Shown here: in pieces, positions 20,426 through 39,672 of the stretch
Position numbering within the stretch: position 1 is the stretch's first letter
How the letters are laid out: each line of letters begins with the position of its first letter
Assembly (NCBI RefSeq): GCF_000421565.1
Contig: NZ_ATXG01000013.1
Coordinates: forward strand, 1-64,000
Direction: 5' to 3'
Length of the DNA stretch: 64,000 bases
Origin: Agromyces subbeticus DSM 16689
Lineage (GTDB): Bacteria > Actinomycetota > Actinomycetes > Actinomycetales > Microbacteriaceae
Program-made: the position numbers and the translations under genes
The notes under the pieces: model-generated
Told to the model about the DNA's origin: nothing
What the model saw: the letters and a program-made list of their open reading frames with translations, nothing else
Database searches by the model: none

Positions 20426-20432
20426 GGCAACA

Positions 20433-21878
20433 ATGACCGACCCCTTCGTACATCCGTACATTCCGAACACCGCGCCCGAGTCGAAGGCGGCGATGCTCGC
20501 GGCCGTCGGCGCGGCATCCGTCGACGAGTTCTACGCCGACGTGCCGGCCGAGCTGCGCCTCGACCGTGCGCTCGACCTGCCGGCGCCCTTCACGGCCGAG
20601 CAGGACCTCGTGCGCCACGTCGAGGGCCTGCTCGCGAAGAACGTCTCGACCCGGAATCGACTGAGCTTCCTCGGCGCCGGCACCTACCACCACTACGTGC
20701 CCGCCGTCGTCGACGAGGTGATCAACCGCAGCGAGTTCCTCACCGCCTACGCGGGCGAGCCCTATGAAGACCACGGCCGCTTCCAGGCCCTGTTCGAGTA
20801 CCAGTCGCTCATGGCCGAGCTGCTCGCGATGGACGTCGTGAACGTGCCGACCTACGACGGCTACCAGGCCACGGCGACGGCCCTCTCGATGGCCGGGCGG
20901 ATGTCGGGCCGCCGCCGGGTGCTCGTCGCGAGCGACGTCCTGCCCGCGAAACTCTCGAAGGTGCGCGACTTCGTGCGCGTGCACCTCGACCTCGAGTTCG
21001 TCGACACCGTCGACGGCGTGACGGATGTCGCGGGCCTCGCCGCGCGACTCGGTGACGACGTGGCCGCGGTCTGGGTCGAGACGCCGAGCCACACCGGCGC
21101 GGTCGAGGCGCGCCTGCGCGAGATCGCGGATGCCGCGCATGCCGCCGGTGCAGTGCTCGTGGTCGGCACCGACCCCATCGGCTACGGCGTGCTCACGCCG
21201 CCCGCCGAGCAGGGCGCCGACATCGTCTGCGGCGACATCCAATCGCTCGGGCTGCACCAGTGGTTCGGGGGCGCGCATGGCGGCTTCATCGCGGTGCACG
21301 ACGACCCGAAGTTCATCATGGAGATGCCGTCGCGCCTCTTCGGCCTCGCGACGACCGACGTGCCGGGGGAGTACGGCTTCGGCGATGTCGCGTACGACCG
21401 GACGTCGTTCGCGCAGCGAGAGGACGGCAAGGAGTGGGTCGGCACGGCCGCCGCCCTCTGGGGCATCGCCGCCGGCGTCTACCTCGCCCTCATGGGGCCC
21501 GAGGGCATGCGCGAGCTCGGCGAGGTGCTGCTCGCGCGCACCCGGTACGCGCAGCAGGCACTCGTCGCCGTTCCGGGCATCGCGCTCGGCGACGACGCGC
21601 TGCACCTGCGCGAGTTCACGATCGACCTCGCCGGCACCGGCCTGACGGCGACCGCCGTCATCGCCGCGCTGCGCGCACAGGGCCTCGAGCCCGGCGTGCG
21701 CGTCGGCGAGCACACCCTGCTCGTCTGCGTCACCGAGATGACCTCGCAGCTCGACATCGACCGGCTCGCCCGCGCGCTGCGCGAGCTCGTCAGCGGCACG
21801 GGCGCCGAGGCATCCGACCCCACCGACTCCGGCGCGACGACCGTGTCCGCCCCGATCCTCGAGGAACAGAGCGCATGA
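20433..21878 (+). CDS. Divergent glycine dehydrogenase subunit 1 (GcvPA-like)
   Basis: A 481-residue protein of the GcvP N-terminal fold, type-I PLP family. It keeps the family opening FVHPYIPNT and FLGAGTYHHYVPAVVDEV. The stretch usually reading TAYTPYQPEISQG is TAYAGEPYEDHGRF here, and the usual SMYDGATA is PTYDGYQATA. True GcvPA works with GcvPB, GcvH and GcvT to decarboxylate glycine. No gcvT or gcvH lies in the window and the changed segment borders the active site, so a different amino substrate is plausible. ATG 20433 has GAGG upstream. It follows GH42 by 7 nt and overlaps gcvPB by 4 nt. Confidence 0.8.
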   Translation: MTDPFVHPYIPNTAPESKAAMLAAVGAASVDEFYADVPAELRLDRALDLPAPFTAEQDLVRHVEGLLAKNVSTRNRLSFLGAGTYHHYVPAVVDEVINRSEFLTAYAGEPYEDHGRFQALFEYQSLMAELLAMDVVNVPTYDGYQATATALSMAGRMSGRRRVLVASDVLPAKLSKVRDFVRVHLDLEFVDTVDGVTDVAGLAARLGDDVAAVWVETPSHTGAVEARLREIADAAHAAGAVLVVGTDPIGYGVLTPPAEQGADIVCGDIQSLGLHQWFGGAHGGFIAVHDDPKFIMEMPSRLFGLATTDVPGEYGFGDVAYDRTSFAQREDGKEWVGTAAALWGIAAGVYLALMGPEGMRELGEVLLARTRYAQQALVAVPGIALGDDALHLREFTIDLAGTGLTATAVIAALRAQGLEPGVRVGEHTLLVCVTEMTSQLDIDRLARALRELVSGTGAEASDPTDSGATTVSAPILEEQSA

Positions 21879-23451: not shown

Positions 23452-24594
23452 ATGCTCGCCCTGCTCGTCAATCCCGTCGCCGGCATCGGTGGACCGGCCG
23501 GCCTCGCGGGAAGCGACGGTGCTGCGGTGCAGCAGCGTGCGAACGAACGCGGTGCGTCGTCACGTGCGACCGAACGTGCGCTCGCCGCGCTCGCCGAGGT
23601 CGCCGCGGCGCATCCCGGTGCGCGAGTGCTGACGGTGGTGGGCACGATGGGAGCGGATGTCGCGCGCGCGGCCGGACTCGAGCCGGTCGTGATCGCCCGG
23701 CACGGCGAGCCGAGCGACGCCGCAGACACCACGGCGGCCGCCCGTGCGCTCGCCGACGGCGGGGCATCGCTGCTCCTCTTCGTCGGCGGCGACGGCACGG
23801 CGCGGGATGTCGCGGCGGGGCTCGGTGCCGGCGGGCGCACCGCCGTGCTGGGCGTGCCGGCCGGCGTGAAGATGTACTCGCCGGTGTTCGCGGTGAGTCC
23901 CCGCGCTGCGGGCGGGGTCGCCGCCGCGTGGCTCACCGACGGCGGGCTCCCGGTTCGCGAGCAGGAGGTGCTCGACATCGACGAGGAGGCCTTGCGACAC
24001 GCTCGTGTCGAGCCGCGCCTCTTCGGCACGCTGCCGGTTCCGTTTCGGCCGGGGCGAACCCAGGCGCGAAAGGCGGCAACACCCGCCGACGAGCAGGCGG
24101 CCGTGCGTGCCGCGGCGCGAGGCGCGGCATCCGCTCTTCGCCCTGGAGTGCGCTATCTGCTCGGCCCCGGCGGCACGATGACCGAGCTCGCCCGCCTGCT
24201 CGGCGTGCCGAAGACGCCGCTCGGCGTCGACGTCGTGCTCGACGGGCGGCGAGTGCTCGCCGGAGCCTCGGAGCACGAGTTGCTCGACGAGATCGCCCGC
24301 GGGCCCGCGGCCGCCGTGATCACCGTCATCGGCGGGCAGGGCTTTCTGCTCGGCCGCGGAAACCAGCAGCTCTCGGCGCGCGTGCTGCGCGCCCTCGGTG
24401 CCGACGCGCTGATCGTCGTTGCACCCGAGCAGAAACTCATCGACCTCGGCGGGCGCCCCCTGCTCGTCGACACCGGCGACCCCGAGGTGGACGCCGGCCT
24501 CGCCGGCTTCATCCGGGTCATCACCGGAACATCCACCACGAGCATCTACCCTGTCGATGCACCGGAACACGAAGGAGAAGGCCATGCGCCTTGA
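23452..24594 (+). CDS. ATP-NAD kinase-like (AcoX/COG3199-type) protein
   Basis: A 380-residue protein. The N-terminus LALLVNPVAGIGGPAGLAGSDG and the FVGGDGTARDV motif (GGDGT, about residues 107-111) mark the NAD kinase/diacylglycerol kinase superfamily. The longer architecture with VITVIGGQGFLLGRGNQQLS fits the COG3199/AcoX group rather than housekeeping NadK. AcoX proteins sit in acetoin operons with undefined function; others are predicted NAD kinases. It follows gcvPB by 2 nt and overlaps the SDR gene by 11 nt, so production of NADP for the SDR, or phosphorylation of another small molecule in this pathway, is possible. Confidence 0.75.
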   Translation: MLALLVNPVAGIGGPAGLAGSDGAAVQQRANERGASSRATERALAALAEVAAAHPGARVLTVVGTMGADVARAAGLEPVVIARHGEPSDAADTTAAARALADGGASLLLFVGGDGTARDVAAGLGAGGRTAVLGVPAGVKMYSPVFAVSPRAAGGVAAAWLTDGGLPVREQEVLDIDEEALRHARVEPRLFGTLPVPFRPGRTQARKAATPADEQAAVRAAARGAASALRPGVRYLLGPGGTMTELARLLGVPKTPLGVDVVLDGRRVLAGASEHELLDEIARGPAAAVITVIGGQGFLLGRGNQQLSARVLRALGADALIVVAPEQKLIDLGGRPLLVDTGDPEVDAGLAGFIRVITGTSTTSIYPVDAPEHEGEGHAP

Positions 24595-25342
24595 GCACAA
24601 GCAGGCGATCGTCACCGGCGGAGCCGGCGGCATCGGCCGCGCCACCTCGATCGCCCTCGCCGCAGAAGGCGCCGCGGTCGCGGTCGTCGACATCGACGCC
24701 GAGGCGGCAGAGGCGGTCGCCGCCGAGATCCGCGAGGCCGGTGGTACGGCCATCGCCATCGCAGCGGATGTCTCGAGCGAGCCCGACATCGAACGCATCA
24801 TCGCCGGCACCGTGGCCGAGTTCGGGGGCGTGAACATCGTCTTCAACAACGCCGGCATCATTCGCCGCACGACGGCGGTCGAGACCACGGTCGAGGAATG
24901 GGACCGGGTGTTCGGCGTGAACGTGCGCTCGATCTTCCTCATGTGCAAGCACGTCGTGCCGATCATGGCGGCATCGGGCGGCGGGTCGATCGTCAACACC
25001 GGCTCGGGCTGGGGCCTCAAGGGCGGCGGCCAGGCGATCTCGTACTGCGCCTCGAAGGGCGCTGTCGTGAACATGACGCGGGCTCTCGCGATCGACCACG
25101 GCCCGCAGGGAATCCGGGTGAACTCGGTGAACCCGGGCGACGTGAACACGGGGATGCTCCGCGACGAGGCGCGCCAGCTCTCGCAAGACGCCGACGCATT
25201 CCTCGCCGAGGCCGCCGACCGCCCGTTGCAGCGCATGGGCGAGCCGCGCGAGATCGCGGCGGCGGTCGTGTGGCTCGCGAGCGACGAGTCGAGCTACGTC
25301 ACGGGCTCTGCGCTCGTCGTCGACGGCGGCGGCATCGCCTGA
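24584..25342 (+). CDS. Short-chain dehydrogenase/reductase
   Basis: A 252-residue classical SDR: cofactor motif TGGAGGIG (residues 11-18), NNAG, the NTGSGWG serine region and catalytic Y154/K158 in YCASK. An acidic residue after beta-2 (VVDID) suggests NAD(H) preference. The C-terminus VTGSALVVDGG is typical of oxidoreductases acting on sugars, polyols or 3-oxoacyl compounds. GAAGGAGAAG precedes ATG 24584, which lies inside the end of the kinase-like gene. It is the last gene of the GH42 operon before a hairpin. Confidence 0.9.
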   Translation: MRLEHKQAIVTGGAGGIGRATSIALAAEGAAVAVVDIDAEAAEAVAAEIREAGGTAIAIAADVSSEPDIERIIAGTVAEFGGVNIVFNNAGIIRRTTAVETTVEEWDRVFGVNVRSIFLMCKHVVPIMAASGGGSIVNTGSGWGLKGGGQAISYCASKGAVVNMTRALAIDHGPQGIRVNSVNPGDVNTGMLRDEARQLSQDADAFLAEAADRPLQRMGEPREIAAAVVWLASDESSYVTGSALVVDGGGIA

Positions 25343-26524: not shown

Positions 26525-26562
26525 TCGGTCGGAGCCGGTCGTTCGCCCCGAATGCGAACACT

Positions 26563-26594
26563 GATGCCGCGTGGTCGGTCGACCACGCGGCATC
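26563..26594. terminator. Bidirectional terminator
   Basis: A perfect 14-bp stem (26563-26576 with 26581-26594) with GGTC loop lies between the convergent LGFP-repeat and RidA genes. Confidence 0.75.
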
Positions 26595-26609
26595 CGTCGT
26601 TCGACCGGT

Positions 26610-27002
26610 CTACCCGTAGGTGCGCGTCGGGATCGCCGCGACCACGTCGATCTCGACGAGGATGTTCGCGAGGCGCGAGCCGACCGTGGTGCGCACGGGG
26701 TAGGGCTCGGTGAAGAACTCGGCGTAGGCCACGTTGTACTCCGCGAAGTCGGCGAGGTCTTCGAGATGGGCCGTGACCTTCACGACATCGTCGAAGGTGA
26801 GGGCGTACTCGGCGAGCACCGCGCCGATGTTGCGCAGCACCTGGCGGGTCTGCTCCGCGACGCCGCCGGGCACGACCTCACCGGTCGCCGGGTCCTGCGG
26901 GCCGAAGCCCGCCGTGTAGAGAAAGCCGTTGGCGACGACGCCGTGGCTGTACGGGCCCGCGGGCTTCGGGGCGTTCGGCAGGGTGACGGCGATCTTGGGC
27001 AT
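26610..27002 (-). CDS. RidA-family enamine/imine deaminase
   Basis: A 130-residue protein of the YjgF/YER057c/UK114 fold, starting PKIAVTLPNAPKPAGPYSHGVVANGFLYTAG. The arginine of YPVRTTVG aligns with the residue needed for imine hydrolysis in RidA, and VEIDVVA matches the C-terminal strand. RidA speeds hydrolysis of reactive 2-imino or 2-enamino acids released by PLP dehydratases to 2-keto acids plus ammonia. The DSD-family deaminase encoded upstream on the same strand would make such an intermediate. AGGAGGAACC precedes ATG 27002; a longer start at 27074 is unlikely. A hairpin 80 nt upstream separates it from the IclR gene. Confidence 0.88.
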   Translation of the reverse strand: MPKIAVTLPNAPKPAGPYSHGVVANGFLYTAGFGPQDPATGEVVPGGVAEQTRQVLRNIGAVLAEYALTFDDVVKVTAHLEDLADFAEYNVAYAEFFTEPYPVRTTVGSRLANILVEIDVVAAIPTRTYG

Positions 27003-27081
27003 GGTTCCTCCTGGGTGGTGAGCGGTCGGTCTCGTGGCTGGTTCGTGCGGTCGTTCGATGGTCGATCGGGTCACGGTCGGT

Positions 27082-27105
27082 GAGCGGATGCCGCGGCATC
27101 CGCTC
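27082..27105. terminator. Palindromic hairpin between the IclR and RidA genes
   Basis: A 24-nt perfect palindrome (half-site GAGCGGATGCCG) folds to a 10-bp stem with CGCG loop just after the IclR stop. It could attenuate read-through into RidA. The GGATGCCGCGGCATCC core is a very frequent word in this genome, so function is uncertain. Confidence 0.4.
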
Positions 27106-27107
27106 GC

Positions 27108-27839
27108 TCAGTCGAGCTCGCCCGCGATGAGCTCGGCGGCCTCGCGCATCGCCGGCAGGTTCGCGCGCAATCGGTCGAGATCGGCGACCATGTGGATGGC
27201 GGTCACCGAGAGTGCGCCGACCACGCCCAGCGGCGTGCGGATCGGCACGGCGATGCAGTTCACGAACGCCTCGAACTCGCGGTCGTCGACGGCCCACCCG
27301 CGCGAGCTCGTCAGGGCGAGCTCGCGGTCGAGCCGCTCGCGGCTGGTGATCGTGAAGTCGGTGTGCCGCTCCCACGTGACGCCGGCGAGCACCGCGTCGC
27401 GCCGGGCGGGGTCGAGTTCGGCGAGGATCGCCTTGCCGACGGCCGAGCAGTAGGGAATCACGGCGCGGCCGATGCGCGAGTACATGCGCACGCCCGACTC
27501 GTCTTCGGCCTTGTCGACGTAGACGATCGACCGGTCCATGAGCGCGGCGAGATGCACGGTGTTGCCCGTGCGGCGCTGCAGCCGGCGCACGTGCTCGGCG
27601 CCGGCCTCGCGCAGGTCGAGCGTGTCGAGCGCCTCCTTCGAGAGCGAGACGAGTCGCATGCCGAGCGCATAGCGACCCGAGCGCCGCTTGCGCACCCAGC
27701 CCACCTCTTCGAGCGCCTGCAACTCGCGGAACATCGTCGAGCGGTGCAACCCGAAGGCCTCGGCGAGTTCGGCGACCGTGCGCGGATCGGCCGCGATCGC
27801 GTCGATGATGCGGGCGGCGCGTTTCACGCTCTGCGACAT
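27108..27839 (-). CDS. IclR-family transcriptional regulator
   Basis: A 243-residue regulator. The N-terminal winged helix-turn-helix (RAARIIDAIAADPRTVAELAEAFGLHRSTMFRELQALEEVGWV) is followed by the IclR effector domain (HLAALMDRSIVYVDK, PYCSAVGKAILAEL, DDREFEAFVNCIAVPI). IclR proteins often govern aromatic or sugar-acid catabolism, and several control 2-keto-3-deoxygluconate pathways. It is the third gene of the run deaminase-deacylase-iclR, starting 1 nt past the deacylase stop with GAGGAGG upstream. The palindrome GTTGCA-N5-TGCAAC in the divergent promoter region is its probable target; KDG or KDPG is a plausible effector. Confidence 0.92.
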   Translation of the reverse strand: MSQSVKRAARIIDAIAADPRTVAELAEAFGLHRSTMFRELQALEEVGWVRKRRSGRYALGMRLVSLSKEALDTLDLREAGAEHVRRLQRRTGNTVHLAALMDRSIVYVDKAEDESGVRMYSRIGRAVIPYCSAVGKAILAELDPARRDAVLAGVTWERHTDFTITSRERLDRELALTSSRGWAVDDREFEAFVNCIAVPIRTPLGVVGALSVTAIHMVADLDRLRANLPAMREAAELIAGELD

Positions 27840-27840
27840 G

Positions 27841-29568
27841 TCAGGCCTCCTCGGACACGAGTGGTCCCGAACCGAGCGCGGCGGAGTCGGCAGATGCGCG
27901 ACGGATGCCCCGCCCCGGCGTCGCCCCAGTGAGCTCGCTGCCCGCGAGCACGGGCACGCCCGCGACGAGCACGTCGTCGATGCCGACTCCGAGGCCGAGC
28001 GGCGAGTCGTACGTCGACGTCGCCCGCACCGCGTCGGGGTCGACGAGCACGAGGTCGGCGATGAACCCCTCGCGCACGGCACCGCGCTCGCCGAGGCCGA
28101 ACCGGGCCGCCGCACGGGCAGACACGAGTGCCGAGGCACCAGCCCAGTCCATGACCGACTGCTCGCGCACGAGAAGCGACAGGAAGCGCGAGAACGAGCC
28201 GCGGGCGCGCGGATGCGGATGGCGGCCGAGGAAGATGCCGTCGGAACCGCCGATCGCGGCCGGGTGCGCGAGGATCTCGGCCAGCTCCGCGTCGCTGCGC
28301 TCGTGCTGCACCGACATCACGACGTTGACCTCGAGGTTCGACGCGACGAGCACGTCGAGCGCGAAGTCGATCGCGTCGATCGTGTCGACCGGCCCGCCCG
28401 GCCCGCCCCGGTCGCGTGCGGCGCCACCCGCGACACCGTTCGCTGCTGCGCGAGCGGATGCCGCCGCTGCACCCTGCGCGATGGTGAGGCCGTGCGCCCA
28501 GTCGTAGCCGGGGGCGGCGACGTGGGCGAGCGTGAGCATCGACGGCCAGTCGGGCCCGAGGCTCGCGTACCCGGCGATGCCCGGGAACCACTCGGCCCGA
28601 AGACGTGCACGGGCGGCTGGATCGGCGAGCTCCGCGACGACCTCGGCGGTCGGCCGCACGGTGAGCGCTGCGGGCAGGAGCGGCATCGCGAGCATCGAGC
28701 AGCCGCGGGTGAACGGGTACGCGTCGAAGCTCGCGTCGATGCCCTCGGCGGCGAGCGATGCGAGCAGGCCGTGCACGAGCTGCGGCTCGGCGTGGAAGTG
28801 CGACACGTGCACTCGGGCTCCCGATGCGTGCGCGATGGCCGCGATCTCGGCGATGCCGTCGCCCGAGTTCGCCTCGTAGCCGCCGCGCATGTGCGAGACG
28901 TAGACGCCGCCGGCATCGGCCACGAGGCCGGCCAGCTCGGCGAGCTCGCCGGTCGAGGCGAAGATGCCGGGCGCGTAGTCGAGTCCGGTCGAGATGCCGA
29001 GGGCGCCCTCCGCGAGGCCCTCGACCACGAGGGCCCGCATCGCGGTGAGCTCGGCCGGCGTCGGGACATCCGTCGACCGGCCGCACACCACGAACCGCAC
29101 GGTGCCCGCCGGCACGAGATAGCCGGCGTTCAGCGCGGTCGCTCCGTCGTAGGCGGCGAGCAGCGAGGCGACCCCGCCGCCGCGATAGCCGGGATGCCGG
29201 CCGTTGATCGCCGCGAAGTACTCCGTGGCGTAGTCGCCGCCACCCGGCGCGTACGACACGCCGTCTTGACCGCCGATGACGGTCGTCACGCCCTGCCGCA
29301 GCAGCGCGAACTGCACGTCGGGGTCGAAGAGCGCGCCGTCGGCATGCGAGTGGGCGTCGATGAAGCCCGGCATGAGCAGGCGGCCACGGCCGTCGATTCG
29401 GTGCGGGGCCCCACTGCCGTCGCTCGCGTCGCTCGCGTCGCTCGCGTCGGCGAGCGTGCCCGCTGCGCCGACGCGCACGATGCGCCCGCCGTCGATGAGC
29501 ACGTCGGATGCCTCGTCGCCGATGCCGTCGGCATCGGCGACGATCACGTTGCAGATCAGCACGCTCAC
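27841..29568 (-). CDS. N-acyl-D-amino-acid deacylase family amidohydrolase
   Basis: A 575-residue metal-dependent amidohydrolase of the D-aminoacylase group. It has the HxH site in DAHSHADG (H73, H75), SHMRGGYEAN, RVHVSHFHAEPQ and the late PGIAGYASLG and ASALVSARAAARFGL segments. In characterised D-aminoacylases the strand after TTV reads GNCG, with the Cys bridging zinc; here it is GGQDGVS, with no cysteine. That suggests divergent metal chemistry and substrate. In context it may remove the acetyl group from N-acetyl-D-glucosaminate before the adjacent deaminase. GTG 29568 lies 8 nt after the deaminase stop. A three-unit CTCGCGTCG microsatellite encodes a DAS repeat near residue 45. Confidence 0.8.
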   Translation of the reverse strand: MSVLICNVIVADADGIGDEASDVLIDGGRIVRVGAAGTLADASDASDASDGSGAPHRIDGRGRLLMPGFIDAHSHADGALFDPDVQFALLRQGVTTVIGGQDGVSYAPGGGDYATEYFAAINGRHPGYRGGGVASLLAAYDGATALNAGYLVPAGTVRFVVCGRSTDVPTPAELTAMRALVVEGLAEGALGISTGLDYAPGIFASTGELAELAGLVADAGGVYVSHMRGGYEANSGDGIAEIAAIAHASGARVHVSHFHAEPQLVHGLLASLAAEGIDASFDAYPFTRGCSMLAMPLLPAALTVRPTAEVVAELADPAARARLRAEWFPGIAGYASLGPDWPSMLTLAHVAAPGYDWAHGLTIAQGAAAASARAAANGVAGGAARDRGGPGGPVDTIDAIDFALDVLVASNLEVNVVMSVQHERSDAELAEILAHPAAIGGSDGIFLGRHPHPRARGSFSRFLSLLVREQSVMDWAGASALVSARAAARFGLGERGAVREGFIADLVLVDPDAVRATSTYDSPLGLGVGIDDVLVAGVPVLAGSELTGATPGRGIRRASADSAALGSGPLVSEEA

Positions 29569-29576
29569 GCTTGCCC

Positions 29577-30893
29577 CTAGAAGAACGTGCGCACGAGTTC
29601 GACGACCCGGTCGGAGCCGCCGCCCTCGACCACCGGGATGAACCGCCACTTGTCGAACGCCGTGCACGGGTGCGAGAGACCGAGCGAGACGACCTCGCCG
29701 ATCGCGATCGGCAACGCCGAGTCCGAGCGCAGGTAGGCGTGCTGGTCGTTGAGCGCGGTGACGGATGCCGCGGCGAGCGGTCGCTCGTCGGCTCCCGGTG
29801 CTGCGGCGACGCCGAACGGCACCGGCAGCCCCTCGTCATAGGGGAAGTCGCGCTTGCCGCCGTCGAGCAGCGCGAGCCCTGGCTCCGGGTGCGAGACGAC
29901 GCGCGCGTAGCCCCGCATGGCGGGCGTCAGCTCAGCGTCGAGGGGCGAGATGCCGCGGTAGAAGCCGTCGTCGTGCAGCAATGAGGCGCCCGAGCGCAGG
30001 ATCCACCGCGTGCCGTCGCCGGCGGCCGTTGCGGCGCTGATCGCCGGCGCGAACACCTCGGCCACGAGGTCGAGGTAGGCGCTGCCGCCGGCCGTGATGA
30101 TGAGCTCACGGGCACCGTCGTGGTCGGCGGCGGCGCCGTCGCCGCCGCCGCCGGTGATGGCGCCCACGATGTCGTGCAGCTCGAGCATCTCGGCGAGGTA
30201 GCCGCGCACCGCCGCGACGGCCTCGGGGGAGCGGTCGTGACCGAGGCTGCCCTCGTAGCCGGCGGTGCCCGCCAGTCGCAGCACCGGGGAGGCCGCGACC
30301 CGTTCGGCGACGCGCGCCGCCTCGCTGACGCCGCGTGCGCCCGTGCGCCCGCCGGCTCCACCGAGCTCGACGAGCACGTCGATGCGGCGAGGGAGCGGCG
30401 CCGGCGGCCCCGTGAGCCCGCGCTCCATCGCCTCGACCGACTCGACGGAGTCGACCCACGCACGGAACGCGAACCCGGGATCAGCCAGCTCGGCGGCGAT
30501 GAACGCGAGGGCTGCCGGCGCCACCACGGTGTTCGCGAGCATGATCGAGGCGACGCCGAACGAGCGCGCCGTTCGCACCTGGCCCGGTGTGGCGAGAGTG
30601 AGGCCGGTGGCACCGGCATCGAGCTGACGCTCCCAGAGGGCCGGGGCCATGGTCGTCTTGCCGTGCGGCATCAACTCGAGGCCTCGGTCATTGCACCAAC
30701 CCTGGATGACGCGGGCGTTGGCGGCGAGGGCGCGATCGTCGAGCGCGAGCAGGGGCGTCCAGAACTCGGCGAGCCGGGGCGAAGTCGCGAGGAACTCGCG
30801 CACGGTGAGGCCGTCGGCGCGAGCGGGCAGGCCCTTGTCGGCGGCAGTGAGCCGTTCGTCGCCGAGTTCGGCGAGCCGCGTGTGCTGTGACAT
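29577..30893 (-). CDS. DSD-family PLP amino-acid deaminase (D-glucosaminate dehydratase-like)
   Basis: A 438-residue fold-III PLP enzyme. The alanine-racemase-like barrel carries the PLP lysine K79 in MPHGKTTMAP. The C-terminal D-serine-dehydratase-like domain has the zinc pair H408 and C410 (SHPCTAFDKW) and NDQHAYL. Members include D-serine dehydratase, D-threonine aldolase and D-glucosaminate dehydratases. The divergent KDG kinase and KDPG aldolase favour the last: D-glucosaminate to 2-keto-3-deoxygluconate plus ammonia. ATG 30893 has GGGAGAG upstream. It is the first gene of the leftward IclR operon. Confidence 0.82.
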   Translation of the reverse strand: MSQHTRLAELGDERLTAADKGLPARADGLTVREFLATSPRLAEFWTPLLALDDRALAANARVIQGWCNDRGLELMPHGKTTMAPALWERQLDAGATGLTLATPGQVRTARSFGVASIMLANTVVAPAALAFIAAELADPGFAFRAWVDSVESVEAMERGLTGPPAPLPRRIDVLVELGGAGGRTGARGVSEAARVAERVAASPVLRLAGTAGYEGSLGHDRSPEAVAAVRGYLAEMLELHDIVGAITGGGGDGAAADHDGARELIITAGGSAYLDLVAEVFAPAISAATAAGDGTRWILRSGASLLHDDGFYRGISPLDAELTPAMRGYARVVSHPEPGLALLDGGKRDFPYDEGLPVPFGVAAAPGADERPLAAASVTALNDQHAYLRSDSALPIAIGEVVSLGLSHPCTAFDKWRFIPVVEGGGSDRVVELVRTFF

Positions 30894-30935
30894 CCGGTTC
30901 TCTCCCGCTTTCATCGCATCGGTACTTCGGGAAGT

Positions 30936-30952
30936 GTTGCATATGCTGCAAC
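30936..30952. promoter_or_regulatory. Probable IclR operator in divergent promoter region
   Basis: GTTGCA-TATGC-TGCAAC, a perfect 6-bp inverted repeat with 5-bp spacer, is centred in the 99-bp gap between the deaminase (left) and KDG kinase (right). IclR-family dimers bind short palindromes of this kind. One site could serve both directions. Confidence 0.6.
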
Positions 30953-30992
30953 GCGTTTGCGCACTCTCTGCACATTCGACAGCATAGAGCGC

Positions 30993-31955
30993 GTGACCAC
31001 CGCGCCGCTGCCCGAGATCGTCGCTCTCGGCGAGACGATGGCGCTCGTCGCGCCCGCACTCGCCGAACCGCTCGAGATCGCCGAGCACTTCCACGTCGAC
31101 TCGGCCGGCGCAGAGGCGAACGTCGCCGCGCACCTGGCGGCCCTCGGGCGCCGCGCGGCATGGGCGGGCCGGGTCGGCGACGACGCGCTCGGCCGCCGCG
31201 TCGTGACGCACCTGCGTTCGCGCGGCGTCGACACCCGCTGGGTCGAGGCCGACCCCGAGGCGCCCACGGGCGTGTACTTCAAAGACCCGGGCCGAGGCGT
31301 GCTCTATTACCGCGCCGGCTCTGCGGCCTCGCGCATGGCGCCGTCATTCCTCGACGGGCTGCCGCTCGACACTGCACGAGTGGTGCACGTGAGCGGCATC
31401 ACTCCCGCGCTCTCCGAATCCTGCGACGCGCTCGTCGACGCCCTGTTCGAACGGGTCGCGGCGTCGCCCGCCATGCTGAGCTTCGACGTCAATCACCGCG
31501 CGGTGCTCTGGCGGCCGGGCATCGCGCCGGGCCGGCTGCTCGACCTCGCAGCACGAGCCGACGTCGTGCTCGTCGGCCTCGACGAAGCCGAGGCGCTCTG
31601 GGGCACCGCCTCGCCCGAAGACGTGCGCGCTCTGCTGCCCGAGCCGGCGCTCCTCGTCGTGAAAGACGGCGACGTCGAGGCGATCGAGTTCCGCGGCCGG
31701 GCCGACGGCTCGCCGTCAACGCTCTCCGGCCTCCCGCTCACGCCCGGCGCGACCCGGGTCGCCGCGAGGTCGGTCGAGGTCGTGGAGACCGTGGGGGCAG
31801 GGGACGCCTTCGCGGCGGGCTATCTCGACGCGCTGCTCGCCGGTGCCGACCCCGATGATCGCCTCGCCGCCGGGCACGCTCGTGCCGTGACGGTGCTCGG
31901 CGATACCGCCGACTTCCCCCGCGCCGCCGCCACCTCGAGGAGCCTCCTGTCATGA
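30993..31955 (+). CDS. kdgK: PfkB-family 2-keto-3-deoxygluconate kinase
   Basis: A 320-residue ribokinase-fold sugar kinase. The N-terminus IVALGETMALVAP, the DSAGAEANVAAHLAALG substrate-loop region, GVYFKDPGRGVLYYRAGSAAS, and the C-terminal VGAGDAFAAGYLDAL (catalytic Asp and anion hole) fit KDG kinases, which make KDPG. The KDPG aldolase gene directly downstream overlaps it by 4 nt and supports the assignment. GTG 30993 is preferred to ATG 30957, because the latter would put extra residues ahead of the conserved start; the ribosome-binding site is weak. Divergent from the deaminase operon across the IclR site. Confidence 0.88.
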   Translation: MTTAPLPEIVALGETMALVAPALAEPLEIAEHFHVDSAGAEANVAAHLAALGRRAAWAGRVGDDALGRRVVTHLRSRGVDTRWVEADPEAPTGVYFKDPGRGVLYYRAGSAASRMAPSFLDGLPLDTARVVHVSGITPALSESCDALVDALFERVAASPAMLSFDVNHRAVLWRPGIAPGRLLDLAARADVVLVGLDEAEALWGTASPEDVRALLPEPALLVVKDGDVEAIEFRGRADGSPSTLSGLPLTPGATRVAARSVEVVETVGAGDAFAAGYLDALLAGADPDDRLAAGHARAVTVLGDTADFPRAAATSRSLLS

Positions 31956-32560
31956 CCATCAGCAACGCCCGGTTCGACGACATCTTCGCCGGCCAGTCGC
32001 TCATGGCGATCTTCCGGGGCATGGGGGCCGAGCGCACGCTCGAGCTCGCCGAACGCGCCTGGAGCCTCGGCATCGACGTCGTCGAACTGCCCATCCAGAG
32101 TGAACGCGACCTCGAGGCGCTCGCCGTCGTGGCGGCCGCCGGGCGCAAGGCCGGTCGTCTCGTCGGGGCGGGCACCGTCGTCTCGGTGCGGCATGTCGAG
32201 CTCGCGGCATCCGCCGGCGCAGCCTTCACCGTGAGCCCGGGGTTCGATCCGCTCGTCTCCCGCGCGTCGGCCGAGGCCGGCCTGCCGCCGCTGCCCGGCG
32301 TGGCGACGGCTACCGAGGTGCAGGCTGCCATGGCCGATGGCCTCACCTGGCTCAAGGCCTTCCCGGCATCACTGCTCGGCTCGGCGTGGTTCCCGGCTAT
32401 GGCCGGCCCGTTCCCCGATGCGCGATTCGTCGCCACGGGCGGCATGGATGCCTCGAATGCGCGAGAGTTCCTCGGCCGCGGTGTGCGCACGGTCGCCGTC
32501 GGTTCGGCACTCGAAGACCCGGCGCAACTGCCGGCGCTCGCCGACCTCGTCGCGAAGTAG
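31952..32560 (+). CDS. eda: 2-keto-3-deoxy-6-phosphogluconate aldolase
   Basis: A 202-residue class I aldolase splitting KDPG into pyruvate and glyceraldehyde-3-phosphate. The Schiff-base lysine is K135 in LKAFPAS, the catalytic Glu lies in IDVVELPI, and FVATGGM forms the phosphate site. The family GAGTV motif is present. It begins inside the end of the kinase gene (ATGA overlap) and ends before a strong terminator, so kdgK-eda is a two-gene unit. It supplies the last step of the proposed amino-sugar acid pathway. Confidence 0.94.
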   Translation: MTISNARFDDIFAGQSLMAIFRGMGAERTLELAERAWSLGIDVVELPIQSERDLEALAVVAAAGRKAGRLVGAGTVVSVRHVELAASAGAAFTVSPGFDPLVSRASAEAGLPPLPGVATATEVQAAMADGLTWLKAFPASLLGSAWFPAMAGPFPDARFVATGGMDASNAREFLGRGVRTVAVGSALEDPAQLPALADLVAK

Positions 32561-32579
32561 CTCCGACCGACGCTTCTCG

Positions 32580-32615
32580 AACGCCCCGTCTCGCACGCCG
32601 AGACGGGGCGTTTCT
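32580..32615 (+). terminator. Rho-independent terminator after eda
   Basis: A perfect 14-bp stem (AACGCCCCGTCTCG with its complement at 32599-32612, loop CACGC) is followed by a short T-rich tail. It separates kdgK-eda from the ABC importer operon. Confidence 0.85.
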
Positions 32616-32643
32616 GCGTGCTCGGAAGGCATGAGGACAGAAA

Positions 32644-32684: not shown

Positions 32685-32771
32685 CACTTTCAGTAACGCC
32701 GGAGCACGAGCACCAGCAGGCGGCGAACTGCACCACCTTCCATGCAACGAAGCTCGAGAGGAATGTCCGAG

Positions 32772-34436
32772 ATGACTCGAACCAAACGCTCGCTCGCGGT
32801 GGCACTCGCCGCCGGAGCGGCCGCACTCGCCCTGGGAATGACCGGATGCACGCCCTCCGCCGGAGGAGGCGGAGACGACTCCTCGGTCCTCCGCGTCTGG
32901 GCCGGCAGCGCCACCCCCATCAACAACAACTTCAACCCGTTCGCCGTCGACACGGCCGTGCACGCCACCTTCGGCGCGATCTACGAGCCGCTGTTCTTCT
33001 TCAACCAGCTCTCGGCCGATGCGCCCGTCGGCCTGATCGGCGACACGTACGAGTACAGCGAAGACGGCACGACCCTCACGGTCACGATCAAGCCCGGCCA
33101 GAAGTGGAGCGACGGCGAAGACCTCACCGCCGCCGATGTCGCATTCACCTTCGGCTACGGCTCGAACAAGTCCGAGCAGTTCGTCTCGGCCGAGGCGACC
33201 GATGACAGCACGGTCGTGCTCACCTACTCCGAACCGCAGTTCACGAGTGCCTCGCTCATCCTCGGCTCGACCTACATCATTCCCGAGCACGAGTGGGCCG
33301 ACATCGACGACTTCATGGCAGAGACCAACCCCGAGCCCGTCGGCTCGGGTCCGTTCGTGCTGAAGAGCTTCTCGGACGCCGCCTACACGGTCGAGGCGAA
33401 CGAGCTCTTCCGCGACGGCGCCCCCGCGGTGAAAGAGGTGCAGTACCTCGGCCTCGACTCGAACCAGTCGTCGCAAGACCTTCTGACCACCGGCAAGATC
33501 GACTGGGTCGGTCAGTTCATCGCGAACCCCGACGCCGTCACGGGCGCTGGCGACATCACCACGCTGAACCTGCAGCAGGACCCGACGACGATCACGACGT
33601 GCTCGAACGCCGAGCTCGGCTGCGTCGGGCCGCAGACCGACTCGGCCGTGCGGCAGGCGATCGACCTCGCGATCGACCGCGCCACGATCGCCGAGAAGGC
33701 GTTCGCCGGTCTCGCGGGCGAATCGTCGCCGTCGTTCACCCTGCAGCCGCGCGACGAACAGTGGCTCAGCGACCCCGAGCTCGCCACGAGCCCGCAGGCA
33801 GCGGAAGTCGCTGAAGCCGGCGCGATCCTCGAGGCCGCCGGCTACACGAAGGACGCCGACGGCTTCTACGGCAAGGACGGTACGGCGATCGAGATCGACC
33901 TGTTCTCGCCCGACGGCTGGACCGATTACAACGACGCGGCGAAGCTCATCTCCGAGCAGGCCGCCGAAGCCGGCATCCGCATCAACGCACGCACCGTCTC
34001 CGATGCCGAGTACTGGACCCCCATCCAGTCGGGCGACTTCCAGATGGCGCTCTACGGCCTCACCCAGAGCCTCGTCGCCGACCCGTACTCGAACTACCAC
34101 GAGTACTTCGCCGCGAGCTCGACCGTGAAGGTCGGCGAGAGCCCCCTCGACGGGCAGAACTACTCGCGCTATTCGAACCCGGTCGTCGACGCCGCGGTGC
34201 TCGCCGCCGGTGCGACGCAGGATGTCGCGGCCAAGCAGGCCGCCTACGCGACGATCCAGACCGAGATCGCCCGCGACCTGCCCTACATCCCGGTGGTGCT
34301 GAACGCCTCGCAGTCGTTCTTCAACACCGAGAAGTTCTCGGGGTGGCCGAGCGAGGGCGACCTCTACGCCGCACCACTGCCGTACCTCGCGGTGGCCAAC
34401 GCGGTCGTGCTCTCGCACCTCACTCCGGCGAAGTAG
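32772..34436 (+). CDS. Family-5 ABC substrate-binding lipoprotein
   Basis: A 554-residue peptide/oligosaccharide-type solute-binding lipoprotein. Signal peptide with lipobox MTGC (C26). The mature part starts SVLRVWAGSATPINNNFNPF and has LTVTIKPGQKWSDGEDLTAADVAFTF and PVGSGPFVLKSF, the SBP_bac_5 signature. Family 5 proteins bind di- and oligopeptides but also cellobiose, chitobiose and other oligosaccharides. The neighbouring GH4 and sugar-kinase genes favour an oligosaccharide. Three in-frame ATGs (32742, 32763, 32772) exist; 32772 is preferred, with GAGAGGA upstream and a compact signal peptide. It heads a five-gene importer operon. Confidence 0.9.
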   Translation: MTRTKRSLAVALAAGAAALALGMTGCTPSAGGGGDDSSVLRVWAGSATPINNNFNPFAVDTAVHATFGAIYEPLFFFNQLSADAPVGLIGDTYEYSEDGTTLTVTIKPGQKWSDGEDLTAADVAFTFGYGSNKSEQFVSAEATDDSTVVLTYSEPQFTSASLILGSTYIIPEHEWADIDDFMAETNPEPVGSGPFVLKSFSDAAYTVEANELFRDGAPAVKEVQYLGLDSNQSSQDLLTTGKIDWVGQFIANPDAVTGAGDITTLNLQQDPTTITTCSNAELGCVGPQTDSAVRQAIDLAIDRATIAEKAFAGLAGESSPSFTLQPRDEQWLSDPELATSPQAAEVAEAGAILEAAGYTKDADGFYGKDGTAIEIDLFSPDGWTDYNDAAKLISEQAAEAGIRINARTVSDAEYWTPIQSGDFQMALYGLTQSLVADPYSNYHEYFAASSTVKVGESPLDGQNYSRYSNPVVDAAVLAAGATQDVAAKQAAYATIQTEIARDLPYIPVVLNASQSFFNTEKFSGWPSEGDLYAAPLPYLAVANAVVLSHLTPAK

Positions 34437-34485
34437 CTCCTCGTCCCATGGAACGAACCTTCCCATTCTCGAGAACGGCAGCGGC

Positions 34486-35490
34486 ATGAGCTTCTACCTT
34501 CGGCGGGTCGCCTTCTACCTGGTGACCTTCTGGGCAGCGATCTCGCTCAACTTCCTGCTGCCCCGGCTGCTGCCGGGCGACCCCGCAGCGATCATGCTCG
34601 GCAAGCTGAGGCGTGCCAGCGGCGGGCGCCCGCTCTCGGAAGAGACGATCGAGGCGATCACCTCGATCCTCGGCGCCGGGAAGGACATGTCCCTGTGGGA
34701 CCAGTACGTCGCGTACTGGGGCCGGCTGCTTCAGGGAGACCTCGGCGTCTCCTCGACGAGGTATCCGGCCCCGGTCGCCGAGCTGATCGCGAACGCGCTG
34801 CCGTGGACGATCATCCTGGTCGGTGTCGCGACCGTCATCTCGTTCGTGCTCGGCATCGTCGTCGGCGCATGGGTGGGGTGGCGGCGCGGCACCTGGCTCG
34901 ACCACCTGGTGCCGATCACGACCGTGTTCCAGTCGATCCCGTACTTCTGGCTCGCACTCGTGCTCGTGGCCGTGTTCTCGGTGCAACTCGGGCTGTTCCC
35001 GATCATCGGCGGGTACGACGTCTTCGAATTCCCAGCCGGACCCGAACTGAGCTGGGCCTTCATCGGCAGCGCGGTCACCCACGCCATCCTTCCCGCGATC
35101 ACGATCGTGCTCTCGTCGGTCGGCGGCTGGCTCCTCGGCATGCGCAACATGATGGTGTCGACGATGTCGGAGGACTACGTCGTCACCGCAGAGGCGAAGG
35201 GCCTCACACCGCGTCGGGTGCGCACGAAATACGCGTCGCGCAACGCCGCGATCCCGAGCCTTGCGGGCTTCGGCATCGCGCTCGGCTTCGTCGTCGCCGG
35301 CTCCATCGTGATGGAGCAGGTGTTCAGTTACCCCGGCATCGGCAAGCTCATGATCCAGGCGGTGCAGGGGCTCGACTACGCGCTCATGCAGGGCGTGTTC
35401 CTCGTGATCACGCTCACGGTGCTCGCCGCGAACTTCTTCATGGACCTCATCTACGGCTTCATCGACCCGAGGGTGCGACACAATGGATGA
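34486..35490 (+). CDS. Dpp/Opp-type ABC permease 1
   Basis: A 334-residue DppB/OppB-type permease. The N-terminus YLRRVAFYLVTFWAAISLNFLLPRLLPGDP is diagnostic of this subfamily. There are six predicted membrane helices and a C-terminal EAA-like loop (AKGLTPRRVRTKYASRNAAIPS). It lies 49 nt after the binding-protein gene and overlaps permease 2 by 8 nt. With that permease it forms the channel for the substrate delivered by the family-5 binding protein. Confidence 0.92.
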   Translation: MSFYLRRVAFYLVTFWAAISLNFLLPRLLPGDPAAIMLGKLRRASGGRPLSEETIEAITSILGAGKDMSLWDQYVAYWGRLLQGDLGVSSTRYPAPVAELIANALPWTIILVGVATVISFVLGIVVGAWVGWRRGTWLDHLVPITTVFQSIPYFWLALVLVAVFSVQLGLFPIIGGYDVFEFPAGPELSWAFIGSAVTHAILPAITIVLSSVGGWLLGMRNMMVSTMSEDYVVTAEAKGLTPRRVRTKYASRNAAIPSLAGFGIALGFVVAGSIVMEQVFSYPGIGKLMIQAVQGLDYALMQGVFLVITLTVLAANFFMDLIYGFIDPRVRHNG

Positions 35491-36577
35491 CTCTCAGCCC
35501 ACCCTTGATCGCGAGGTGCTCGACTCGTACGCCACGGGTGACGACGCGCCGTTCCAATCGCCGGCCTCGGCCGAGGCGGTGCGCGAGACGGCGAGGGAGA
35601 CGACCGCCACGGCGGCCATCGCCGCTGCCCGGTCGAGTCGCGGCGGCCGCTTCCGGCACATCCTGCCGAGCCGATCGGGCAAGCTCATCACGGGCATCGT
35701 GATCGTCGGCCTCATCGCCCTGTTCGGCATCTTCGGGCCGCTGATCGCCCAGCCGCCACGCGACTCCGACAACGATGCACTGCTGCCGCCGTCGCCCGAG
35801 CACTGGCTCGGCACGACGAAACTCGGTTACGACGTGTTCTCGCAGCTCGCGTGGGGCACCCAAGGCTCCCTCTTCATCGGTCTCGTCGCGGGCATCGTCG
35901 CCCTGCTGCTCGCCGTGATCTTCGGCGTGTTCGCCGGCTACTTCGGCGGCGTGCTCGACGAGGTGCTCACCCTGTTCACGAACATCGTGCTCGTCATTCC
36001 GGGCCTTCCGGTCGTGATGGTGATCGCCGCGTACGTGCAGAACGCCGAGGGCCTCGGCCCGCTCGCACGCAGCTCGCTGCTCGTCGCCCTCGTGCTCGGC
36101 ATCACGGGCTGGGCCGGCTCGGCCGTGGTGCTGCGCGCCCAGGCGAGGTCGCTGCGCACCCGTGAGTACGTCGCCGCGGCCCGGGTCGCCGGCGAGAAGC
36201 CCGGCCGCATCATCTTCGTCGAGATCCTGCCGAACCTCGTGCCGCTGCTCGCTGCCCAGTTCATCTTCGGCGTCATCTTCGCGGTGCTCGGCGAGGCCGG
36301 GCTCTCCTACCTCGGTCTGGGACCGACCGGCTCGATCACGCTCGGCACGATGCTGAACGACGCCCAGACCGGGCAGGCCGTCGGCACCGGCGCCTGGTGG
36401 TGGTTTGTGCCGCCCGGCGCGATCATCGCTGCGCTCGGCGCCGGCCTCTCACTCATCAACTTCGCGATCGACGAGGTCGTGAACCCCAAGCTCAGGCTCG
36501 CGCCAGAGAACGCCAAACGCCAGCGCAAGGCCGCAAAGGCCGGCAAGGGCATCGCCGACACGGGAGCATTCGCATGA
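35483..36577 (+). CDS. Dpp/Opp-type ABC permease 2
   Basis: A 364-residue DppC/OppC-type permease. An unusually long hydrophilic N-terminus of about 65 residues (acidic, then Ala/Arg-rich) precedes helix 1. HWLGTTKLGYDVFSQLAWGTQGSL is the family hallmark and ARVAGEKPGRIIFVEILPNL the ATPase-contact loop. The C-terminus is lysine-rich. The ATG overlaps the previous gene and its stop overlaps the next ATG, indicating coupled translation. Confidence 0.92.
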   Translation: MDDSQPTLDREVLDSYATGDDAPFQSPASAEAVRETARETTATAAIAAARSSRGGRFRHILPSRSGKLITGIVIVGLIALFGIFGPLIAQPPRDSDNDALLPPSPEHWLGTTKLGYDVFSQLAWGTQGSLFIGLVAGIVALLLAVIFGVFAGYFGGVLDEVLTLFTNIVLVIPGLPVVMVIAAYVQNAEGLGPLARSSLLVALVLGITGWAGSAVVLRAQARSLRTREYVAAARVAGEKPGRIIFVEILPNLVPLLAAQFIFGVIFAVLGEAGLSYLGLGPTGSITLGTMLNDAQTGQAVGTGAWWWFVPPGAIIAALGAGLSLINFAIDEVVNPKLRLAPENAKRQRKAAKAGKGIADTGAFA

Positions 36578-37491
36578 ACGCCGGCACCGTCAACCACCTC
36601 ACCGAGAATGCTGCCGATGGCGTCGTCGACGACACCGCGCTCGGCGAACCGGTGCTGAGCGCCCGCGGCGTCTCGATCGAATACGAGGTCGATCCGCCCG
36701 TGAAGGCCGTGCGCAACGCGACCATCACCCTGCACCGGGGCGAGATCCTCGGCCTCGCCGGCGAGTCGGGCTGTGGCAAGACGACCCTCGCCTACGGCCT
36801 CAACCGCCTCTTGAAGGCCCCGGCGCTGATGACCGGCGGCGAGGTGGTGTTCCACGATGCATCCGGCCGCGACATCGACGTGGTCTCGCTCGACGGCGAG
36901 GCCCTGCGCGCCTTCCGCTGGAACAAGGTCTCGATGGTCTTCCAGGGCTCGATGAACTCGCTGAACCCCGTCATGAACGTGCGCAAGCAGTTGCACGACG
37001 TGTTCACGACGCACCGGCCCGCGATGAGACGTGCAGAGCGCGAGTCGAGAAGCGCCGAACTGCTGAACCTCGTCGGCGTCGACCCCAGTCGACTCTCGAG
37101 CTTTCCGCACGAGCTGTCGGGCGGCATGCGCCAGCGCGTCATGATCGCGATGGCGCTCGCCCTCGACCCGCAGATCATGATCATGGACGAGCCGACCACA
37201 GCGCTCGACGTCGTCGTGCAACGCGGCATCATCCGCGAGATCATGCGGCTGCGCGAGCGACTCGGTTTCGCGGTGATCTTCATCACGCACGACCTGCCGC
37301 TGCTCATCGAGATCAGCGACCGCATCGCGATCATGCTCGACGGCGAGATCATCGAGCAGGGTGACGCCGAGCAGATCTACCGGGCGCCGGGGCATCCGTA
37401 CACCCGGCGGCTGCTCTCGAGCTTCCCGAGCCTGCGCGGCGATCGCGGCGACTTCATCCGCACCGGCGTCGCGGCGGGAGGTGCGGCATGA
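36574..37491 (+). CDS. Dpp/Opp-type ABC ATPase 1
   Basis: A 305-residue ATPase with Walker A GESGCGKTT, Q-loop MVFQGSMNSLNP, signature LSGGM, Walker B IMIMDEPTTALD and H-loop ITHD. The C-terminal extension (PYTRRLLSSFPSLRG) is typical of oligopeptide/dipeptide ATPases, but the usual cysteine-containing Fe-S or zinc motif of DppD/OppD tails is absent. ATG 36574 overlaps the permease stop. It pairs with the following ATPase to drive the importer. Confidence 0.92.
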   Translation: MNAGTVNHLTENAADGVVDDTALGEPVLSARGVSIEYEVDPPVKAVRNATITLHRGEILGLAGESGCGKTTLAYGLNRLLKAPALMTGGEVVFHDASGRDIDVVSLDGEALRAFRWNKVSMVFQGSMNSLNPVMNVRKQLHDVFTTHRPAMRRAERESRSAELLNLVGVDPSRLSSFPHELSGGMRQRVMIAMALALDPQIMIMDEPTTALDVVVQRGIIREIMRLRERLGFAVIFITHDLPLLIEISDRIAIMLDGEIIEQGDAEQIYRAPGHPYTRRLLSSFPSLRGDRGDFIRTGVAAGGAA

Positions 37492-38336: not shown

Positions 38337-38355
38337 ATCACCGTCGAACCTCAAA

Positions 38356-38374
38356 CAGTAAAGATTCTTTTCAG
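38356..38374. promoter_or_regulatory. Probable ROK-regulator operator (autoregulation)
   Basis: CAGTAAAGATTCTTTTCAG is an imperfect palindrome in an AT-rich patch upstream of the ROK gene. It shares 13 of 19 positions with the site at 32644-32662 before the importer operon, in either orientation. This suggests one regulator for both promoters. Confidence 0.5.
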
Positions 38375-38411
38375 ATAGAGTACGAGCAGGATGACAACGG
38401 AAGGCGGCACG

Positions 38412-39566: not shown

Positions 39567-39672
39567 CGCACGTCGACTGCTCGCGGATGTCGCCGCGGCA
39601 TCCGTCGACCGACCCCGAACCCCGCTCTCGCGCGCTTCTGCGCGCCACGAACCACGCACGGAATGAGGACCA

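Follow-up and report, generated by a model that had tools for sequence, protein, structure and literature searches.

Analysis of a 64,000-nucleotide stretch of the Agromyces subbeticus DSM 16689 genome (positions 1 to 64,000 of contig NZ_ATXG01000013.1, referred to here as the window) identified a module of six genes at 26610–32560 that probably degrades a 2-acetamido-2-deoxy-aldonate, most likely N-acetyl-D-glucosaminate, under an IclR-family regulator. The genes form two divergent operons, DSD-Dac-IclR-RidA on the minus strand and KdgK-Eda on the plus strand, with one 17-bp palindrome between them. We read their products as a single pathway because the genes are found together repeatedly, in rearranged orders, in other genomes and because a common operator is conserved between the two sides. 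This reading holds up well against the comparative evidence, by which the pathway would be widespread in Actinomycetota and have a regulator of its own.

In the proposed pathway, Dac would take the acetyl group off N-acetyl-D-glucosaminate and DSD would dehydrate and deaminate D-glucosaminate to 2-keto-3-deoxygluconate (KDG), with RidA hydrolyzing the released enamine or imine. KdgK would then phosphorylate KDG to 2-keto-3-deoxy-6-phosphogluconate (KDPG), which Eda would cleave to pyruvate and glyceraldehyde-3-phosphate. The IclR protein would act on the single palindrome to control both operons, with either KDG or the substrate as its likely effector.

The six genes and their candidate operator

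A first-pass annotation of the window had placed six genes facing each other across one operator; all six were present, and their Pfam family assignments were all above the Pfam cut-offs. On the minus strand, RidA (26610–27002), a Rid-family imine/enamine deaminase, matched PF01042 (Ribonuc_L-PSP, 4.6e-33) and passed the TIGR00004 model (109.7 bits, cut-off 106.25). It is followed by the IclR-family regulator (27108–27839; PF01614, IclR_C, 1.7e-38, and PF09339), which putatively controls both operons, by Dac (27841–29568, GTG start; PF07969, Amidohydro_3, 2.8e-19), a D-aminoacylase-like amidohydrolase and the proposed N-acetyl-D-glucosaminate deacetylase, and by DSD (29577–30893, alternative start 30914; PF14031, D-ser_dehydrat, 2e-17), a pyridoxal 5'-phosphate (PLP) deaminase proposed to convert D-glucosaminate to KDG. 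On the plus strand are KdgK (30993–31955 from a GTG, alternative TTG start 30957; PF00294, PfkB, 9.2e-44), the proposed KDG kinase, and Eda (31952–32560; PF01081, Aldolase, 1.9e-33, 116 bits against a cut-off of 27.8), an aldolase of the KDPG/2-keto-4-hydroxyglutarate type whose gene overlaps kdgK in an ATGA.

DSD has a solved relative in 3gwq (6.7e-56), and the Lys of its PHGKT motif and the His and Cys of its HPC motif were each kept in 110 of 110 sequences; we take the conserved Lys to be the PLP lysine and the His-x-Cys pair to be the zinc site. KdgK aligned with the KDG kinase of Thermus thermophilus (1v19) over 300 residues (4.6e-33) and shares with it the motifs YYR-GSA, D-N-R-LW and GAGDAFA, and this match scored 118.2 bits and came second among the structural matches, behind 4du5, a PfkB protein without a named function. 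KdgK passed no NCBIfam equivalog cut-off. In Eda, the Schiff-base lysine K135 and the K, F, P and A of the KxFPA motif were kept in 49 of 49 sequences. The best NCBIfam model for the IclR protein was KdgR (145.1 bits, under the cut-off of 275), and since this best, sub-cut-off model is KdgR, KDG is suggested as the effector. A second, diverged KdgK-Eda pair (41% and 43% identity) was noted elsewhere in the host genome, at about 19.2 kb on contig C25 (locus L002).

The palindrome between the operons, GTTGCATATGCTGCAAC at 30936–30952, has no strand and is of the form GTTGC-N7-GCAAC. Some 40 bp separate it from either start codon, and it is the single perfect copy in the 4.3-Mb genome, which held four further matches with one mismatch (a reversed control pattern gave ten). 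Within the window, allowing up to two mismatches, there was one other match, at the start of iclR (27821–27837, two mismatches), as expected by chance.

In relatives the palindrome recurred. The full pattern was present in 28 of 52 divergent KdgK|DSD spacers, where 60 rounds of dinucleotide shuffling gave a mean of 0.05 and a maximum of 1, and the core TTGC-N7-GCAA was present in 41 of the 52, a count made without a shuffle control. Over 140 loci (2.38 Mb) there were 43 copies, 37 of them within 400 bp upstream of DSD, and two control palindromes of similar composition had 0 and 6 copies over the same loci. Of the six remaining copies, two (L108 and L109) represent another palindrome, rich in GC, one (L147) falls inside the called dsd gene, whose start was probably called too early, and one (L090) adjoins an IclR gene. 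The last two stand upstream of a GH20 gene (L121) and, in L168, in the gap that separates a GH20 gene from a divergent gene for a LacI-type regulator, possibly the owner of the site. In L117 the palindrome stands between a GH18 gene and dsd. In one lineage, then, and perhaps in another, the operator would reach a hexosaminidase gene.

Hairpins were found 3' of both operons, at 26563–26594 (minus strand) and, with a 15-bp stem, at 32579–32613 (plus strand), and each is a possible terminator without a T-run. Folding of the RNA of 26560–26615 gave -33.9 kcal/mol (z -4.94; 0 of 200 shuffles equally stable) and that of 32570–32625 gave -33.2 kcal/mol (z -5.10). A terminator scan in which a T-run was required listed neither hairpin, its sole listed site being inside RidA, and the same simple scan found no sigma-70-type promoter.

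Linkage of the genes in Microbacteriaceae and beyond

Searching 299 Microbacteriaceae genomes, the host included, for Dac (E 1e-20) gave matches in 76 genomes from 34 of 85 genera. Of the 75 Dac-positive genomes besides that of the host, 57, mostly better-scoring ones, yielded 60 regions no longer than about 20 kb. Five of these regions, in which Dac has Cys at a metal-site position discussed below (Cys-type), were set aside, leaving 55 regions, among them four (L076, L079, L088 and L090) that stand outside the residue alignment. Within 9 kb of Dac, DSD was found in 52 of the 55, RidA in 45, and IclR, KdgK and Eda in 33 each; all five partners were found in 24. As to conservation of the genes as a block across the family, which had been put forward as a check of the first-pass annotation, DSD, KdgK and Eda stood together by Dac in 32 of the 55 regions (13 of 25 genera), and 22 had neither KdgK nor Eda, which speaks against a universal link. 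Both were also absent in all five Cys-type regions, one of which is merely 7 kb long.

The gene order varied from clade to clade, with at least seven arrangements seen over all loci. Besides the divergent arrangement of the window, there were kdgK-eda-dsd ahead of dac-ridA, dsd-iclR-kdgK-eda-dac, kdgK facing dsd-eda-dac-gntP, dac-kdgK-eda-dsd-lactonase, kdgK facing dsd-dac-eda, and dac-iclR-dsd-kdgK-ridA. According to gene calls and starts from a simple caller that missed some genes (e.g., Eda in L038, which was found by tblastn), dac shares 4–8 bp with kdgK in L084 and with eda in L081 and L132. Two eda-like places occur in the 4.3 Mb of the host genome, and so the chance of one in a given 20-kb stretch is roughly 1%, which serves as a rough yardstick. 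A chance neighborhood of the six genes was rejected in view of their repeated, rearranged co-location. In seven loci a small gene stands beside eda (e.g., L042 13563–13970), and the one representative scanned, that of L042, has a rhodanese-like domain.

For a wider view, 16 aligned Dac proteins served as the query against one genome per species, and the best 80 of at least 308 relatives, some of them on short contigs, were taken as named loci. Seventy-three of these 80 are from Actinomycetota, four from Chloroflexota, two from Pseudomonadota and one from Bacillota, in agreement with the earlier proposal of an actinobacterial version of the pathway. Near Dac in the 80 loci were DSD (64), RidA (63), IclR (50), KdgK (45) and Eda (18). 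DSD and KdgK were both present in 43, which carry 13 genus labels, a blank one included; 28 of the 43 are from Streptomycetaceae, and the others include Kribbella, Nocardia, Lentzea, Saccharothrix and Tsukamurella. On a FastTree of 130 Dac proteins, for which the kdgK and eda presence counts are lower bounds, at least 21 changes in the presence of kdgK are needed, a figure from a fast method with long branches that is inflated by missed genes and contig ends. Hence repeated gain or loss of kdgK beside Dac seems likely.

Substrate of the module and alternative readings

A DSD-type enzyme requires a D-configured 2-amino-3-hydroxy acid, and KdgK and Eda require a 2-keto-3-deoxy-hexonate. Based on these requirements, D-glucosaminate or D-galactosaminate would be the likeliest substrate of DSD. 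The neighbors of Dac in relatives gave further hints, with cluster names for GntP, GH20, GH18, lactonase, short-chain dehydrogenase/reductase (SDR) and Gfo resting on one to three scanned representatives each. Of the 80 named loci, eight had a GH20 gene near Dac, with a 4-bp overlap of the two genes in L103, L105 and L106, and eight had a GH18 gene near it, the representative having a carbohydrate-binding domain. A seven-bladed sugar lactonase (PF10282) was an operon mate in nine loci, four of them from one Microbacteriaceae genus with the order dac-kdgK-eda-dsd-lactonase or similar. Gfo/Idh/MocA dehydrogenases and SDR dehydrogenases were found in six loci each, a GntP permease in 28 of the 80, and an acetyl-CoA synthetase gene nearby in some relatives. 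The Gfo/Idh/MocA dehydrogenase and the GntP permease belong to the operon in some relatives. The GH20, GH18, lactonase and sugar-dehydrogenase neighbors point to a substrate that would be an aldonate made from an N-acetylhexosamine.

By sequence and by fold, the nearest solved structures to Dac were D-aminoacylases, N-acyl-D-amino-acid deacylases and OngB, the deacetylase of the marine ong pathway; these made up the nine top Foldseek matches of an AlphaFold2 model with a pLDDT of 93.0. OngB of Pseudoalteromonas prydzensis (PpOngB; PDB 9kb1, 9kb3) matched with an E-value of 1.1e-32, a TM score of 0.86 by target, an rmsd of about 4 Å and 23% identity. Positions of OngB residues were placed on Dac via an alignment with the D-aminoacylase AfDam, not by aligning OngB itself residue by residue. 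On that placement, the HxH pair, catalytic Asp, Tyr and Arg residues of OngB (His68, His70, Asp368, Tyr194, Tyr285 and Arg379) correspond to H73, H75, D443, Y198, Y284 and R454 of Dac, all invariant in 46 sequences, and the metal-site His pair (OngB His222 and His252) is retained. If the pathway reading holds, Dac would work like OngB.

Several observations weigh against the proposed pathway. In the Cys/His/His metal site of OngB and the subtype V D-aminoacylases, the Cys (OngB Cys97) is Asp102 in Dac, with Asp in 52 and Cys in 5 of 57 aligned family sequences; Asp was also found in 46 of 46 of a wider set, partly by construction, as one search pattern held GQDG. The residue that binds the substrate carboxylate in OngB, Lys254, is His259 in Dac (H 35, T 17 and K 5 of the 57), and the OngB marker Ser292, although Ser291 in the window Dac, is inconsistent in its relatives (T 43, S 14); around Gln298, the other specificity marker of OngB, the alignment is unreliable. 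To our knowledge, no protein of this Dac subfamily has been tested. Membership of the DSD family does not separate a glucosaminate deaminase from a D-amino-acid deaminase, and OngC, the deaminase of the ong pathway, also takes D-serine and D-threonine. The GntP proteins of the named loci show a match to the D-serine permease DsdX as well, and the GH20 and GH18 neighbors described above are found in a minority of the named loci. The module of the window itself has no dehydrogenase, lactonase or GH20 gene, KdgK and Eda are both missing from the 22 family regions noted above, and a PF03067 search of the host genome found no AA10 lytic polysaccharide monooxygenase (LPMO).

Of the alternatives, the one that survives best keeps the same chemistry and changes the substrate, to N-acetyl-D-galactosaminate (via 2-keto-3-deoxygalactonate, KDGal, and its 6-phosphate, KDPGal) or to a mixture of 2-acylamino-2-deoxy-aldonates with the D configuration at C2. 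The best NCBIfam model for the kinase, a bifunctional KDG/KDGal kinase, would suit this alternative, with a score (149.3 against 440) that is far below its cut-off; the aldolase is likewise below all NCBIfam cut-offs, at 134.5 bits for the Eda model TIGR01182 (cut-off 156.05) and 113.6 bits for a KDPGal aldolase model. Against it stands the Eda position that we take to correspond to Thr161 of E. coli Eda, and which we presume to mark KDPG as opposed to KDPGal aldolases: it is Thr or Ser in 48 of 49 sequences and Val in one. The gluco series is favored because of this residue, GH18 chitinase neighbors also favor glucosamine, and we consider a galacto or mixed substrate fairly unlikely.

A second alternative is that the minus-strand operon degrades N-acyl-D-amino acids of the D-serine or D-threonine type and that kdgK-eda is a separate sugar-acid operon lying by chance across the promoter. 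The family annotation of Dac and DSD would fit it, as would the activity of OngC on D-serine and D-threonine (PMC9537276), the regions without KdgK and Eda, and the DsdX matches of the GntP neighbors. It does not sit well, however, with the occurrence of KdgK and/or Eda in one run with Dac or DSD, in several layouts and at times with overlapping genes, or with a single conserved operator that serves both sides. GH20, GH18 and lactonase partners are ill-suited to D-amino acids, and none of the five regions with Cys-type, that is classical, deacylases (one of them the 7-kb contig) had KdgK nearby. Together, these observations make this alternative improbable. A module for detoxification or salvage of a natural product with an amino-sugar acid, as opposed to a carbon-source pathway, would agree with its frequency in Streptomyces and other genera reputed to produce antibiotics and with a protective role of RidA against reactive imines, but we regard it as very improbable given partners that are glycoside hydrolases, transporters and central aldolase chemistry and a core set that recurs across families.

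For the preferred reading, degradation of N-acetyl-D-glucosaminate, the source of the substrate must also be considered. AA10 LPMOs (PF03067) were found in 10 of the 299 family genomes: in 8 of the 76 Dac-positive genomes and 2 of the 223 others (Fisher p 0.0004), a comparison that assumes the same 299 genomes in both searches and in which the 76 include some Cys-type deacylases. Among the named relatives, 34 of the 50 genomes scanned (50 of the 80) had one. The host genome has two GH18 matches, six GH20 matches (about five genes, outside the module) and one PF10282 lactonase elsewhere. As the host genome lacks an AA10 LPMO, there is no support here for a substrate derived from LPMO action; the host would need oxidized chitin from its neighbors, or an aldonate made inside the cell by a dehydrogenase and a lactonase.

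The latter would amount to a general route for N-acetylhexosamines, oxidative, non-phosphorylating and LPMO-independent, which we put forward only tentatively: N-acetylglucosamine (GlcNAc) released by GH18 and GH20 enzymes would be oxidized at C1 by a Gfo/Idh/MocA or SDR dehydrogenase, a beta-propeller lactonase would open the lactone, an Asp-type Dac would deacetylate the N-acetylglucosaminate so formed, and deamination would give KDG for the Entner-Doudoroff trunk. Pieces of such a route co-occur in relatives, with GH20 and/or lactonase genes by Dac in several Actinomycetota. In two alphaproteobacteria (L126, Paracoccaceae, and L138, Kaistia), a Gfo/Idh/MocA dehydrogenase, an Asp-type Dac, DSD and a lactonase are in one run headed by three transport-like genes; the putative binding protein among those of L126 gave no Pfam match. 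None of the loci seen held every step, and the window has the common trunk only. The conserved gene set raises the question of whether amino-sugar aldonates are also made inside the cell by a dehydrogenase and a lactonase, and not solely by LPMOs.

Downstream of the module, 32742–41933 holds genes for an SBP5 binding protein, Opp-type ABC permeases and ATPases, a ROK regulator, a GH4 hydrolase and a BadF/NagK-like kinase, which together look like a system that takes up and cleaves an oligomer with sugar units, GlcNAc perhaps among them. Membership of the same regulon was rejected, as a hairpin lies in between and no palindrome copy (up to two mismatches) is present there. A looser link is possible, since some or most of these genes adjoin the module in other loci of the same genus (L035, L036 and L038). 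Farther downstream is a malate:quinone oxidoreductase gene (43752–45230; PF06039). Upstream of the module are a glycine-dehydrogenase-like gene (20379–21878) and, on the plus strand, an NAD-kinase-like gene (23452–24594) followed by an SDR dehydrogenase gene (24587–25342). In two other Microbacteriaceae genera (L089 6534–10474 and L094 6889–10364), a Cys-type deacylase, GH20 and sugar-ABC-transporter-like genes form one run, with DSD and RidA nearby and KdgK and Eda absent.

Comparison with the ong pathway and related enzymes

Actinobacteria are prominent chitin degraders in soil, and a search of open-licence full texts found no description of their use of C1-oxidized chitin sugars. The system with which the module is best compared is the ong cluster of P. 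prydzensis ACAM 620 (OngB, OngC, OngD, KdgK, OngR, OngA and OngIT). By genetics and biochemistry, Jiang et al. 2022 (PMC9537276) showed that OngB deacetylates N-acetyl-D-glucosaminate, that OngC forms KDG from glucosaminate and has activity on D-serine and D-threonine as well, and that KdgK is the kinase for KDG. Pseudoalteromonas no longer grew on N-acetyl-D-glucosaminate once ongB, ongC, ongD or kdgK had been deleted. The complete pathway was reported there in Gammaproteobacteria and one betaproteobacterium, by a survey that required four co-occurring genes with more than 30% identity. Our own search via 398 Pseudomonadota genomes with a Cys-type query matched 12 genomes, and the 12 regions held no ong cluster.

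By family, the two systems share a D-aminoacylase-like deacetylase, a fold-type III PLP deaminase, RidA, a KDG kinase and a local regulator (PMC9537276). The Eda of the window also has a counterpart, an extra kdgA aldolase gene in the ong versions of Vibrio, Klebsiella and Serratia (PMC9537276). The first-pass annotation had joined the deacylase, deaminase, RidA, KDG kinase and KDPG aldolase into one pathway and likened it to marine chitin oxidation; the single pathway is borne out by rearranged co-location and a common conserved operator, and the marine counterpart by the matching gene set (PMC9537276). The two residue changes in Dac, the missing AA10 LPMO and the family regions without KdgK and Eda speak against carrying that pathway over unchanged to this host.

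The regulator is of the IclR family in the window and of the MurR/RpiR type (OngR) in ong, and kdgK adjoins the common operator here, whereas in ong the kdgK operon lies outside the control of OngR (PMC9537276). The module has neither a GH20 gene (OngA in ong) nor a TonB receptor, and no SSS-family transporter was found among the scanned adjacent genes, a genome-wide search for it not having been made. With Asp for Cys97 in Dac, no Lys254 and an IclR in place of an RpiR regulator, the module is, as judged from its genes, not an ong cluster as defined.

The same holds for the deacylase. Wang et al. 2025 solved the structure of OngB and named its key residues, and they report Cys97 and Lys254 as strictly conserved across OngB and D-aminoacylases (PMC12017989). 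The replacement of Cys97 by Asp and of Lys254 by His ruled out the window Dac as a true OngB. AfDam (1m7j) and the N-acyl-D-glutamate deacylase BbDam (3gip), its top matches by sequence and fold, have the same two departures from Dac, and the genomic partners of Dac point to sugar acids rather than amino acids. On sequence grounds, Dac is outside both the OngB and the Cys-type D-aminoacylase groups as defined and is a distinct subfamily of putative deacetylases with an unusual metal-site residue.

The conserved gene set and its own operator make the module a testable candidate in genetically tractable Streptomyces. The host belongs to Actinomycetota and ong is mainly known from Gammaproteobacteria; if our reading is correct, a pathway that has until now been demonstrated in Gram-negative bacteria would extend to Actinomycetota.

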